Of a stretch of DNA of 23,445 nucleotides, positions 4,814 through 16,863 are shown in pieces (the stretch's first letter is position 1; each line of letters opens with the position of its first letter). Made by a program: the position numbers and the translations under genes. The stretch spans positions 1-23,445 of the forward strand of contig RQSC01000070.1 of assembly GCA_013416795.1 (NCBI GenBank). Direction: 5' to 3'. The notes under the pieces were generated by a model. The model was not told the DNA's origin and ran no database searches. It saw nothing but the letters and a program-made list of their open reading frames with translations. This stretch comes from Prasinococcaceae sp. CCMP 1430. Lineage: Eukaryota > Prasinodermophyta > Palmophyllophyceae > Prasinococcales > Prasinococcaceae.

Positions 4814-5175
4814 CGCGCGTGCGCGCGCCTCTCAACAACCCCTCCCCCCTTCTACGCCCAGGGCGCGTCCCTGCCGCACCCGCGCCGCCGCGCACCGCGG
4901 CACGCGCGCGCCTTGTGGCAACCCCCTCCGGTCGCTCCCCCCCCCCCCCACACCTGAGCAACACCCGCCCCGTCCAGCTGCTGCGCGCGCTGCGGGCGGC
5001 CTCGAATTTGGTCCGCCCCTCAGGTTTAGGTTTTAGTGAGTTAGGGTTTATCTTTAGGGTCACACCCAGGTGAGGTTGCGGTTCTGTGTCAGGATTTGAA
5101 GACGAGGTACGCGTGGCTTTCAGGGTTCGGTTTCGACCGAAGTATTCAAATCGCTCGTGTGTGTGCGTTCATCAA
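4814..5175. promoter_or_regulatory. Divergent promoter region, golgin / dihydroorotase
   Basis: 362 bp between two start codons pointing away from each other. It has a 13-C run at 4937-4949 and a degenerate telomere-like patch at about 5022-5061 that contains a perfect TTAGGGTTT. No gene is recognisable. Its role as a promoter is inferred from position. Confidence 0.5.
5041..5049 (+). promoter_or_regulatory. Telo-box-like motif TTAGGGTTT
   Basis: Exact reverse complement of the plant telo-box AAACCCTAA. It sits in a T/G-rich patch with further TTTAGG and TTTAGGG strings nearby, 135 bp before the dihydroorotase ATG. The function in this organism is inferred. Confidence 0.4.
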
Positions 5176-6683
5176 ATGCGGCGGTAAACCTCAAAGGAGC
5201 CGCCGTCGCGCGGCCGGCCGGCGGCTGGGGCGGGCTCGGGGGACTGAGAGGAGGGGTGGGAGGCCCGCGCGCCGCACCGCCGCGCGCGCCGCCGACGCCA
5301 GCCTCACGCTACGCGCTCCCGATGACTGGCACCTGCACGTCCGCGACGGCGCGGGGCTGGCGTCGGTGGTGCCGCACTCGGCCTCCAATTTTCGCCGCGC
5401 CGTCATCATGCCAAACCTCACACCGCCGGTGACGACCATCGAGATGGCCGCCGCGTACCGCGCGCGCATCGAGGCGGCGGTGCCCGCCGACGTGAGCTTC
5501 GAGCCGCGTATGGCGCTCTACCTCACCGACAACACGACTGCGGAGGACGTCGCCGAGGCGCATGAAGCAGGCATCGTGCACGGGTACAAGCTCTACCCCG
5601 CGGGGGCGACCACAAACTCAGACGCGGGCGTCACCGACCTCGCAAACTGTGCGGATGCGCTCAAGGCCATGGAGGCGCTCGGCGTGCCGCTCATGGTGCA
5701 CGGCGAGGTGACGCACTCGCACGTGGACATTTTCGACCGCGAGGCGAAGTTCCTGCAGGAGGTGCTCGCGCCGCTGCTCGAGGCGCATCCAGGCCTCAAG
5801 CTAGGTACGATGATATCGCACGGCGGTGCCGCACGCGCGCGCGTTGCCGTGGTCTGGTCTGACGCGCGCTTGGGACGCGCCTTTGCTCCACCCGCGCGAG
5901 CGCAGTCGTGGAACACTGCACCACTGCGGAGGCTGCAGCCTTCGTCAGCTCGGCTGGTGAGAACGTCGGAGCGACCGTCACCCCGCAGCACCTGCTGCTA
6001 AACAGGAACGCGCTATTGGTCGGCGGGATGCGGCCGCACAACTTTTGCCTCCCGGTGCGTGAGAATCGCGCAGCGCGATTGTTCAATATGTGCTGGTTCT
6101 CGGCGCCGACCCGTCCCGAACGATCACGTGCGCTGACATCAACGGGCTCTGGGCGCGTGCCATGTGCCATCCCCCTTCCCCTCCAGGTTTTGAAGCGCGA
6201 GACGCACCGGCAGGCGCTCGTTGATGCGGTGACCTCGAGCGCCGTCGGCCACAAGTTCTTCCTCGGCACGGACTCCGCACCCCACCCAAAGGGCGCGAAG
6301 GAGGTGCGACACGCGATGCGCGATGTCGACGCGCCAGGCACAAGTACTGCGATCGCCCAGCGCTTGCGTACCTGTACACTGACATTGGTCGCGCGCGCAC
6401 GCCTACGTACGCGCAGTCGGCGTGCGGCTGTGCGGGGTGCTTTTCCGCGTACGCCGCGCTTCCACTGTACGCGCACGCGTTCGAGGACGCGGGAGCGCTC
6501 GACAAGCTTGAGGGCTTCGCCTCGCTCAATGGCCCGCGCTTCTACGGCCTTGAGCCCAACGAAGACACTGTGACTCTCGTCAGGGAGAACTGGAGAGTGC
6601 CGGATGAGTACGAATTCGCTGACACGGTGGTGGTGCCTCTCAAGGCGGGGGAGACGCTGCGTTGGAAGCTCAGCGATCAATAA
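5176..6683 (+). CDS. pyrC: Dihydroorotase, PyrC type (five exons)
   Basis: It catalyses reversible cyclisation of carbamoyl-aspartate to dihydroorotate, step three of pyrimidine synthesis. The model is join(5176..5183, 5302..5804, 5906..6054, 6187..6303, 6417..6683): 347 aa, close to the 348 aa of E. coli PyrC, and colinear end to end. All metal and substrate residues expected of the family are visible: H13 and H15 in [10 protein letters not shown]41 in MPNL, the carboxylated Lys K99 in [10 protein letters not shown]136 in MVHGE, H174 in VVEH, D249 in GTDSAPH. The Cys-rich CGCAGC loop follows. The 8-nt first exon is inferred: no in-frame ATG exists upstream of exon 2, and splicing from GTAAAC at 5184 restores a PyrC-length N-terminus. 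With this start there is no targeting peptide, unlike plant mitochondrial enzymes, so an upstream alternative first exon remains possible. It is convergent with the jouberin gene. Confidence 0.93.
5184..5301 (+). other. Dihydroorotase intron 1 (118 nt)
   Basis: Donor GTAAAC, acceptor GCCAG, with a CTGAG branch-like motif 54 nt before the acceptor. It is inferred to supply the missing start codon. It is the least certain intron of the gene. Confidence 0.55.
5805..5905 (+). other. Dihydroorotase intron 2 (101 nt)
   Basis: Donor GTACGA, acceptor GCGCAG, branch-like CTGAC at 5859-5863. Splicing restores the conserved string [14 protein letters not shown]. Confidence 0.92.
6055..6186 (+). other. 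Dihydroorotase intron 3 (132 nt)
   Basis: Donor GTGCGT, acceptor CTCCAG after a C/T tract, CTGAC at 6133-6137. Its length is a multiple of three and it has no stop, so retention would insert 44 residues into the conserved FCLPVLKRE block. Confidence 0.92.
6304..6416 (+). other. Dihydroorotase intron 4 (113 nt)
   Basis: Donor GTGCGA, acceptor GCGCAG, CTGAC at 6379-6383. Splicing joins PKGAKE to SACGCAGCF, as in PyrC proteins. Confidence 0.92.
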
Positions 6684-13391: not shown

Positions 13392-14717
13392 TCATGCGCT
13401 GGTCACAGCGAGCGCCCGGATGACGCTCCGCGAGGCCGCCTTTCGTCTGGCTCCGACTGCTGTCACCGCCCGCGCCACGGACATCGTGTACTGCACGTTT
13501 GTGAGCATCAATCGCGACAGTGCGCGAGCACAGCCGACGATGGCAGGACGGACGAGGTCTTCGACCGAGCCATCGCGGAATGAGTGCGAAGCCAAAGGGT
13601 CGACGACAGCGAGGTCGTTTGCAGCGCCCTGGATGGCGCCCGCGACTGCTGCTATGCCGTCCGACACATGCGCGAGCTCGTGAAGCTCGTGATGCGTCTC
13701 CTCTCGCAACCTCTTCCCTTCTTGAGTGCGAGCGTGCCGTTCTTTGTCGGCGTCTCGCTTCGTGTCCGGGCCTTGCAGCACGTCGAGCAGCTCCTCGCCG
13801 ATGGGCTCCACACTGGTGCGGCCATCCCCACGCACAGCCTTCTTGGGCCGATACGTGCTCCATTTGTCGTGGTCGTCGCCATCGCCGTCACCGTCGTCGT
13901 CAGAGTCGCCGCCATCCTTTTCGTCGTCGCCGGAGCTCTCAGCCTCTGCGAGCTCCTCAGCCTCGTCTTGTCGAAGGGCATCTTTCATGTCATTGCGCGC
14001 TTGCTCGAGCTTCGCCATGGCGTCCTGCGCCACGGCCTCGTGCTCCGGCACGAACTCGGTCACGAGCGCGGACATATCTCCGAAGTCGCACGAGATGAGT
14101 GCCTCACCCGTGCACTCGCTCGCTGGAATCACTCTATCCTCGCCCTCCTCCCAGGCGCGCGGCTCGCCATCTTTGTGCACGACGAACTTGAAGTACACGG
14201 CCTGTCCTTCATCGCCATCCCCATCCTCAGAGCCCGTCGCCGGCGCGGTCACCGGCAGGAGCAGCTCGCCCTCCCACACGTCGCCGTCCGTCCACTCGAG
14301 CGACGTGCCCGCGGCCAACGCGGCGCCGATGTCCCACGCACCCAGATCGGGGTGCGACCCCACCACGCAGACGCTCTCGCCGAAGCGCACATGAATTCCC
14401 ACGCGCACATGCAGTATGAGTCCGCCGCCTTCGCCCCACCCATCAGCGTCCGCGCCGAGACCTGCCGCGCCCGCCGCGGGCAGCGAGTCTTCGCCCGTCT
14501 CCGCGGCCACCTCGCGTAGCAAGGCCTCCATGTGCGGCGCCGTGTCCGCGCATCGCGCCGCACGCCGGTGTGCGCGCGTGCCGAGTACCAGGCAAGCGCG
14601 CGCCACGGCGCTGTCTCGCGCGCTGTGGCGCCCACAGTGGCGCCACCGACCCCATCCCACAGCCCGCGCGCGCGCGCAGCCGGTGTTGACGCCGCCGGCG
14701 CGCCCTTTGAGGTTCAT
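13392..14717 (-). CDS. CBM20 (starch-binding domain) protein
   Basis: The 441-aa frame has one clear CBM20 alpha-glucan-binding domain at about 98-215: the string SVCVVGSHPDLGAWD, then LEWTDGDVWEGELLLP, VYFKFVVHKDGEP and WEEGEDRVI. The family's WExGxNR motif has Asp in place of Asn. No catalytic domain is present. Residues 1-62 are Arg/Ala-rich and could be a targeting peptide or untranslated; a second ATG (14531, residue 63) is a credible start. After the CBM20 come a helical Glu/Ala segment, an Asp/Gly-rich acidic tract near 265-285, and a helical C-terminus of unknown role. The final 50 residues are not recognisable and could hide a missed splice. It is a close paralogue of the CBM20-SAP gene, head to head across about 740 bp, but lacks the intron within the domain. 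Confidence 0.78.
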   Translation of the reverse strand: MNLKGRAGGVNTGCARARAVGWGRWRHCGRHSARDSAVARACLVLGTRAHRRAARCADTAPHMEALLREVAAETGEDSLPAAGAAGLGADADGWGEGGGLILHVRVGIHVRFGESVCVVGSHPDLGAWDIGAALAAGTSLEWTDGDVWEGELLLPVTAPATGSEDGDGDEGQAVYFKFVVHKDGEPRAWEEGEDRVIPASECTGEALISCDFGDMSALVTEFVPEHEAVAQDAMAKLEQARNDMKDALRQDEAEELAEAESSGDDEKDGGDSDDDGDGDGDDHDKWSTYRPKKAVRGDGRTSVEPIGEELLDVLQGPDTKRDADKERHARTQEGKRLREETHHELHELAHVSDGIAAVAGAIQGAANDLAVVDPLASHSFRDGSVEDLVRPAIVGCARALSRLMLTNVQYTMSVARAVTAVGARRKAASRSVIRALAVTSA

Positions 14718-15455
14718 TGAAAACTAGGGTTCAAAGAAGCTGCTTCATAGAATGTTCTTTGATGCGTTTTGTTTTTTTAACTTGCCAAGAATGGTTTAGG
14801 TTTCATCGGCTCGAAGGCAGCGAGGCCAGCTGCGGGAGGGGGGCACACGCGCTGCGCGCGCGCGCGCATCCGCGGGCGTTTTTTCCTACTTTTTCTTTTT
14901 TTCGGGCGGGCGCGTCGCGTCGCGGCGCGGCGCGAGCGACGTTTCGGCGAGGTGCGTGGGACCATCGGACTTCGCGGAAGGCGGGGCGAAAGGCGCGAGG
15001 GCGCGGGTCCCTTTCCGGGATCCGGGGCGCGCGGCGACGGGCCGGCCCGAAACCCCCTCCACCGCCACGTACGGATGTGATATGCGTAACACGTTGGCAA
15101 CAACACTCGGCACATGAAACCCCGATCGACACATCGAACGAAACGCGCCCCGCTGGAAAAAGAACAAAAAAGCGCGGGAGATGGAATCGGCTGCAGGTGC
15201 GGATTGAGATGAGATGCGACGGGGCGGTGATGAGGAAACCCCTGCAAAGCCGTCGTTTTTTTTTTTTGCCTTGCAGGCAGGAGAGACGGGGAGGAAAGAG
15301 GAAGAAGAGGATGGGCTGTGAAGGCCCCGAAGGGCTTCGAAGGCGTCGCACCCGGCCGTTGGCGGCTCCGGCGCGTCCCGTGGCCGCGCCACACCTTCGG
15401 TTGCACGGTGCGTGGCGGGATTCGCGCGGGCAGACCTTCTTCGCGTTTAGATCCG
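14718..15455. promoter_or_regulatory. Divergent region between CBM20 paralogues
   Basis: 738 bp without a supportable gene. It holds a CTAGGGTT telo-like string at 14724-14731, an 8-bp inverted repeat (14731-14738 with 14755-14762), T-rich blocks near 14769-14777 and 14879-14902, alternating GC near 14850-14867, and a 13-T run near 15257-15269 followed by GCCTTGCAG. That run looks like a splice acceptor, so an upstream non-coding or short coding exon of the CBM20-SAP gene may lie here. Confidence 0.4.
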
Positions 15456-16863
15456 ATGGCTTTCCCGTGGGTACCTTTTGGAGGCGCCTCTTCAGGCACC
15501 TTTTTTCGCGCGTCAGCGGCGCCGCCCGCGTGGCGAAAAAGCGCGCGCGCGCGCGGCGACTGCGCGTCGGCAGCAGCAGCGCGGACGGCGGCGGCGGAGG
15601 GCGGCGGCGGGGCGCGGGTGCCGCGCTCCGAGTCGAGCCGTTGCGGCGTCCGAGGGGGGGGGCGGCAGCAACAGGGAACTCAGACTGCGCGTGTGCGTGG
15701 AGAAGCACGTGCACTTCGGCGAAAGGTGCGAGCGAGCGAGCGACCGCGCCGGCGCAGGGAGCGGTTGTGTGCATGCTCTTTCTGCCTTGGTGCTCCGTGC
15801 GCCCGCGCTGACACGCCGTCGACAAAGCGTGTGCATGGTGGGGTCGCACCCTGCGCTGGGTGAGTGGGACATCGGGCGCAGCGCGCCGCTCGAGTGGACA
15901 ATGGGCGACCTGTGGCAGGGCGAAGTGCGGCTGCCAGCGATCGCGCCCAAAGCGTGCAGCGAGGGGGGCGCGGGCACTGCTGACGTGTACTTCAAGTTCG
16001 TCATCCAGAGAGACGGACACCCGCGCAGGTGGGAGGAGGGCCAGAATAGGGTGATTCTCGCGAAAGAGTGCGATGGGGACGCACGCATCTCGTGCAAGTT
16101 CGGTGACATGTCGGCAGGCCTGACCGCGATCGAGGCAGAACCAACTAGCGTCGAGGAAGCTACGATCGAGGGCGAAGGGGGGGCAAGCGCAGCACGTGCG
16201 GCGCCCCCCCCCCCGCGCCCTCCGCCCCTGCCCCCACGCTCCCCGCCGCTCGAGCGTCCTCGCGCCCTTTCGCCATCGCGAGCTCGTGGCGGAGCCTGGA
16301 GGAGGAGCCTGACGACGAGGAGCCCGGATGGTGAGGACGAGGTTGAGGAGCCTGAGAGGGCTGAAGTGGTGCTCAGTCTCGAGGAAGCGCGGGCGAAGCT
16401 CGAGGACGACGTGCGCCAGAGCGCGAGCGAGACGAGCAGAGAACACGAGATGGAGCAGCAGGAGCGGGAGCAGGGGGAGCTGGGCTTTGCGGCGGCGGCA
16501 TACTGGGCTCGGCGCGCGGTGGTGGGGACAAGCGCGGCACGCGCGGCACCTTCCGCGCGGCGGCCTTCGATACCACCGCCCGGCGCGCCGTCGCGAGCTC
16601 GCGGCGGAGCCTGGAGGAGGAGCCGGAGGAGGAGCCTGACGATTAGGAGCCTGGAGGATGAGGATGAGGAGCCTGTGATGCCCGAAGTGTTGCGAGGCTC
16701 GCAGCGAGCAACCGGCGGCGCACGACACATCGCCCTCAGTACCGAAGGGTCGACGCTCGCGGCGTGCAAGCTCGCGGAGCTCCGCGAGATGTGCCGGGCG
16801 CGCGGCCTCCGGACGTGGGGCACCAAGCAGATGCTGGCGGAGCGTCTCGAGAAGGGCTACTAG
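15456..16863 (+). CDS. CBM20-SAP fusion protein (5' end unresolved)
   Basis: The supported coding frame runs from about 15675 to the stop at 16861-16863, with one intron (15726-15827). An N-terminal CBM20 domain spans about 15676-16080: HVHFGE, then SVCMVGSHPALGEWD, LEWTMGDLWQGEV, VYFKFVIQRDG and an intact WEEGQNR. A Pro/Arg/Glu linker contains a duplicated module. The C-terminus ends in a SAP-type motif (LAELREMCRARGLRTWGTKQMLAERL), a helix-turn-helix usually binding DNA or RNA. No in-frame ATG precedes the CBM20. The nearest, 15456, is one base out of frame: either the 9-G run at 15654-15662 has one extra base, or an intron (for example 15467-15674, giving MAFPELRLRV) is spliced out; that intron lacks the CTGAC motif. 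The start given here is therefore provisional. Confidence 0.7.
15726..15827 (+). other. CBM20-SAP gene intron (102 nt)
   Basis: Donor GTGCGA, acceptor ACAAAG, CTGAC at 15808-15812 only 16 nt before the acceptor. Removing it restores HVHFGESVCMVGS, colinear with the intronless paralogue. The length is a multiple of three and it has no stop, so the frame reads through. Confidence 0.88.
16183..16675 (+). repeat. In-frame duplicated module in CBM20-SAP linker
   Basis: Copy one (about 16183-16354) and copy two (about 16526-16675) share SAARAAP, SRARGGAWRRS, an LT(T/I)RS string and an EDE-x-EEP acidic end. Offsets between matching parts are 345, 315 and 321 nt, all multiples of three. Confidence 0.8.

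Follow-up and report, generated by a model that had tools for sequence, protein, structure and literature searches.

The two CBM20 genes lying head to head in this stretch of DNA differ by the presence of a 102-nucleotide (nt) insert with GT and AG at its ends, which is found in the plus-strand copy (positions 15726 to 15827) and is missing from the minus-strand copy. The insert is very probably a spliceosomal intron, and we favor the view that it is a regular singleton (canonical) intron of the prasinophyte type, probably gained in the plus-strand lineage after the duplication, with the minus-strand copy never having possessed one. We infer both the splicing of 15726 to 15827 and the direction of the change from the sequence. 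The presence/absence difference was noted correctly and is of an ordinary kind, such differences being common.

The insert is located on the plus strand between two conserved anchors, HVHFGE and SVCMVGSHP, and the only GT-AG pair between these that preserves the frame is the one at 15726 and 15827. It begins with GTGCGAGCG and ends with CGACAAAG (last bases ACAAAG). Its excision restores HVHFGESVCMVGSHP, with the joined codons GAA AG|C GTG TGC reading E-S-V-C; that is, the predicted intron is in phase 2 and splits the serine codon as AG|C. In the plus-strand CBM20 transcript, these 102 nt would be spliced out and the serine rebuilt from AG and C. The matching site in the minus-strand copy, at 14374/14373, reads TTC GGC GAG AGC GTC TGC without a gap, leaving GAG AG|C GTC uninterrupted. 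A preliminary description of this DNA had reported a 102-nt GT-AG intron splitting the Ser codon of GES in the plus-strand copy, which is borne out for boundaries, frame, and splice signals, and the same codons standing uninterrupted in the minus-strand copy, which we also find. Its further statement that there is no other change between the two is false: across the CBM20 coding regions, 96 of the 354 aligned nucleotides differ, and 72 of the 118 residues are identical (61%), leaving 46 that differ. The term “polymorphism” used there is likewise the wrong one for a difference between paralogues.

The splice signals point to the host's own introns. The host, a small green alga, is a photosynthetic eukaryote and can be read as a prasinophyte, the group of Micromonas, from a light-harvesting protein of its genome (locus L045), which matches the Lhcp-type chain of 7yca (E value of 6e-104 over 187 residues); 7yca is presumably the PSI-LHCI-Lhcp complex of Ostreococcus tauri, and Lhcp marks prasinophytes. 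As a yardstick, we used 10 introns whose borders are set by homology, from Rab/Ran genes and from a dihydroorotase-like gene within the window (the whole contig C118, 23,445 bp). This last gene, at 5100 to 6680 on the plus strand, served as the local yardstick; its three introns, all clear, measure 101, 132, and 113 nt. The 10 introns are 94 to 240 nt long; seven have a GTGCG donor, all 10 carry a C/TTGAC motif, and nine end in CAG and one in TAG. The distance from the motif to the AG is 34 to 53 nt in eight of them and 19 nt in another, and one intron carries motifs at both 61 and 7 nt from the acceptor; the spacing varies widely in this genome and does not define its introns. The insert, with the context AAAG|GTGCGA...GCTGAC...AAAG, shares the GTGCG donor core and CTGAC with these introns. 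The branch-point-like CTGAC lies at 15808 to 15812 (plus strand), its A 16 nt before the 3' end of the predicted intron, a distance shorter than that in most host introns, and the acceptor is AAG rather than CAG. Canonical introns of Micromonas prefer an AG|GTGCGT donor and an NCTGAC branch motif (PMC3879977), the latter being of the type seen here. When a 102-nt window was moved through 6,672 registers over the coding sequence of the contig, 24 registers (0.4%) had GT at the start together with AG at the end, and the combination of GT, AG, and a CTGAC near the 3' end occurred in none of the 6,672.

The length of the insert is divisible by 3, and the host frame runs through it without a stop; a retained copy would hence be translatable. 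One alternative is that the 102-nt stretch is coding sequence, or is frequently retained, adding 34 residues to the CBM20 domain after GE and before SVCMVG. Consistent with this, the codon score of the insert falls inside the coding range, with 7.9% of coding windows scoring equally low, and the score alone is thus not decisive. Against it, the donor, CTGAC, and acceptor fall exactly at the boundaries set by homology, and the other CBM20 domains of the genome have no comparable insert. Further, the GC content of the insert, read in the host frame, is 0.70 at codon position 2 and 0.61 at position 3, and an excess of GC at position 2 over position 3 as large as this is found in none of 744 coding windows. 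We therefore regard a coding insertion as very unlikely. Taking the host-type splice signals together with the noncoding composition by codon position, we conclude that the insert is very probably a spliceosomal intron.

The plus-strand gene can be followed on both sides of the predicted intron. The 5' part of its CBM20 coding region (15686 to 15725), ending in ...HVHFGE plus the AG of the serine codon, has coding composition from about position 15685 (GC by codon position of 0.77/0.23/0.92) and is recovered by tblastn as a piece at 15679 to 15729; the candidate upstream acceptor for this stretch is at about 15679 or 15685. The exon downstream of the predicted intron (15828 to 16160, 3' border approximate), starting with SVCMVGSHP..., has coding composition and matches Pfam PF00686 at 40.1 bits. 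The 3' part of the same open reading frame (16161 to 16863) is of low complexity, is partly duplicated, and ends in a SAP domain (PF02037, E value of 8e-8), with the coding score turning negative near 16140 to 16280 and 16500 to 16600 (plus strand). The duplication is direct, between 16271 to 16342 and 16586 to 16669 (plus strand; 315 to 327 nt from start to start, 83 to 90% identical), in low-complexity sequence with a poor coding score. The presence of CBM20 and SAP in one open frame (15828 to 16863, plus strand) would be an unusual combination if this is truly one protein. The minus-strand paralogue (13392 to 14531) is an open frame from an ATG at 14531, with an alternative in-frame ATG at about 14717; it matches CBM20 at 40.4 bits, shows no intron within its open frame, and has no SAP domain. 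Both copies thus exceed the Pfam gathering score for PF00686, 23.3 bits, and the similarity between the two genes is detectable in the CBM20 region only, the remaining parts being different.

It is also conceivable that the plus-strand copy is in decay, in which case the insert would not be under selection as an intron. The region upstream of the CBM20 exon (15451 to 15685, plus strand) shows no in-frame ATG, no coding signal, and no CTGAC for an upstream intron, as might be expected of such a copy. We consider decay clearly unlikely: the CBM20 and SAP parts retain open, coding-like frames, and the upstream part might be accounted for by an exon that was missed or by a frameshift in the G run near 15656. 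There is an ATG at 15456 (plus strand) in another frame, and the G homopolymer near 15656 lies between this ATG and the CBM20 exon.

To place the two genes among their relatives, we searched the 24.5-Mb assembly (145 contigs), in which Pfam finds CBM20 in six places; a protein search of the genome added none to these. The site of the predicted intron is read through in all five other CBM20 domains: HVRFGESVCVVGSHP in the minus-strand copy, HVQYGQRVAVMGSH in the domain on contig C101, RVEFGEQLAVCGS in that on C82, LRPGELVVVVGS in that on C75, and TIKFGDCFAVVGS in that on C72. Further, a search of the whole genome with the spliced protein is split into two pieces here and at no other locus. The C75 domain (locus L005) is followed by sequence resembling, as recognized by eye, a DPE2-type 4-alpha-glucanotransferase, and the C72 domain (locus L006) is apparently interrupted by an intron at a different site, right after ...VWKVDVV. 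Related loci in viral contigs were not found. The four domains outside the window are 28 to 35% identical to the plus-strand copy, and no CBM20 match other than the minus-strand copy exceeds 39% identity to it. The two copies in the window, at 60 to 61% identity, are each the nearest relative of the other in the genome, in keeping with the preliminary view of them as direct paralogues, while a tree of the short CBM20 domains does not settle the branching order among plus, minus, and C101. We conclude that the two genes are old paralogues, arranged head to head. Of the 38 fourfold sites compared between them, 12 differ, and the estimates of dS disagree by method (NG86, 0.52; YN00, 0.97; maximum likelihood, 1.08; i.e., about 0.5 to 1.1). 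Dating from synonymous sites was accordingly dropped, as the three estimates disagree and there is no clock; with no orthologues either, the claim that this is a dated case of intron birth or death has no support.

That account had offered gain in one copy or loss in the other. As the intron is also missing from the CBM20 domains on C101, C82, C75, and C72, gain in the plus-strand copy requires the fewest events. We treat it as likely rather than certain, given that these outgroup domains are distant and that the tree does not order the plus, minus, and C101 branches. In the history that we favor, the intron would have been gained in the plus-strand lineage after the duplication and would never have been present in the minus-strand copy. 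The other half of the original proposal survives as a rival, in which the intron is older than the duplication and was precisely lost from the minus-strand copy, e.g., when a cDNA made from the mRNA of that copy recombined with the gene. The minus-strand frame is open and shows no intron, and the one at this site is missing cleanly, to the base, as would be expected from loss via cDNA, a route outlined in a reverse-transcriptase model (PMC3652778). A history in which the intron arose first, the genes then duplicated, and the minus-strand copy dropped it needs just one step more than gain in the plus-strand copy, the extra event being required by the four intron-free domains. The minus-strand copy bears no positive sign of retroposition, which had been suggested as the route of loss, and the inverted, head-to-head arrangement of the pair suggests duplication at the DNA level. 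Hence, we view loss as somewhat unlikely.

The mechanism of gain cannot be told from the sequence. Introners are abundant in the group of Micromonas (PMC3879977, PMC4815162), to which this prasinophyte host belongs, and the insert has AAAG at either end, raising the possibility that it is a mobile intron of the introner type, intact or decayed. The genome search with the intron sequence that the preliminary description had called for recovers the insert itself only and detects no introner family: a DNA search with the 102 nt across 24.5 Mb, which skips very common words, yields no second copy, and an internal 27-base pattern, with three mismatches allowed, matches this locus alone in the whole genome. 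A 4-base repeat at the ends is also present in an ordinary intron, the first of locus L020. We consider an introner origin extremely unlikely. The 4-nt AAAG repeat is no more than chance would give, an ordinary host intron showing four bases too, and makes no clear case for a target site duplication. An origin by tandem duplication was rejected: the 9-mer GTGTGCATG, common to the intron and the downstream exon, is at chance level, with 437 of 1,901 (23%) random 102-nt pieces of the window sharing at least nine bases with their flanks. It is quite improbable that the gain, specific to the plus-strand copy, came from an intron source still active in this alga, with the source decayed or too sparse for a visible repeat family; if it did, orthologues in sister species would bracket the gain within a narrow interval.

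We thus have one clean site of intron presence and absence between paralogues, which would amount to at most one entry in any tally of prasinophyte intron turnover and would carry greater weight only if sister species confined the gain to a brief interval or pointed to the donor of the intron sequence. Two Micromonas strains have only 47% of their canonical intron positions in common (PMC3879977); hence, an intron in one of two paralogues that are 61% identical is to be expected in this lineage. Among known systems, the predicted intron is closest in its features to the canonical singleton introns of Micromonas and other Mamiellophyceae (PMC3879977), with which it shares GTGCG after AG, CTGAC, GT-AG ends, and a unique sequence; it differs from those of Micromonas in having its motif 16 nt from the acceptor, against the published 43 to 52 nt (PMC3879977), and in its AAG acceptor. 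The introner elements of Micromonas (PMC3879977, PMC4815162) resemble it in belonging to a related lineage, in the GYGCGT-type donor of IE-A1/A2, and in phase 2, which is preferred by IE-B/IE-D; unlike them, the insert has no second copy in the genome, and its ends are GT-AG, whereas those of IE-B/IE-D are GT-TG. As for the domain itself, both copies in the window pass the curated cutoff for CBM20 (Pfam PF00686), and that of the plus strand shares its open frame with SAP, whether or not the two form one protein.
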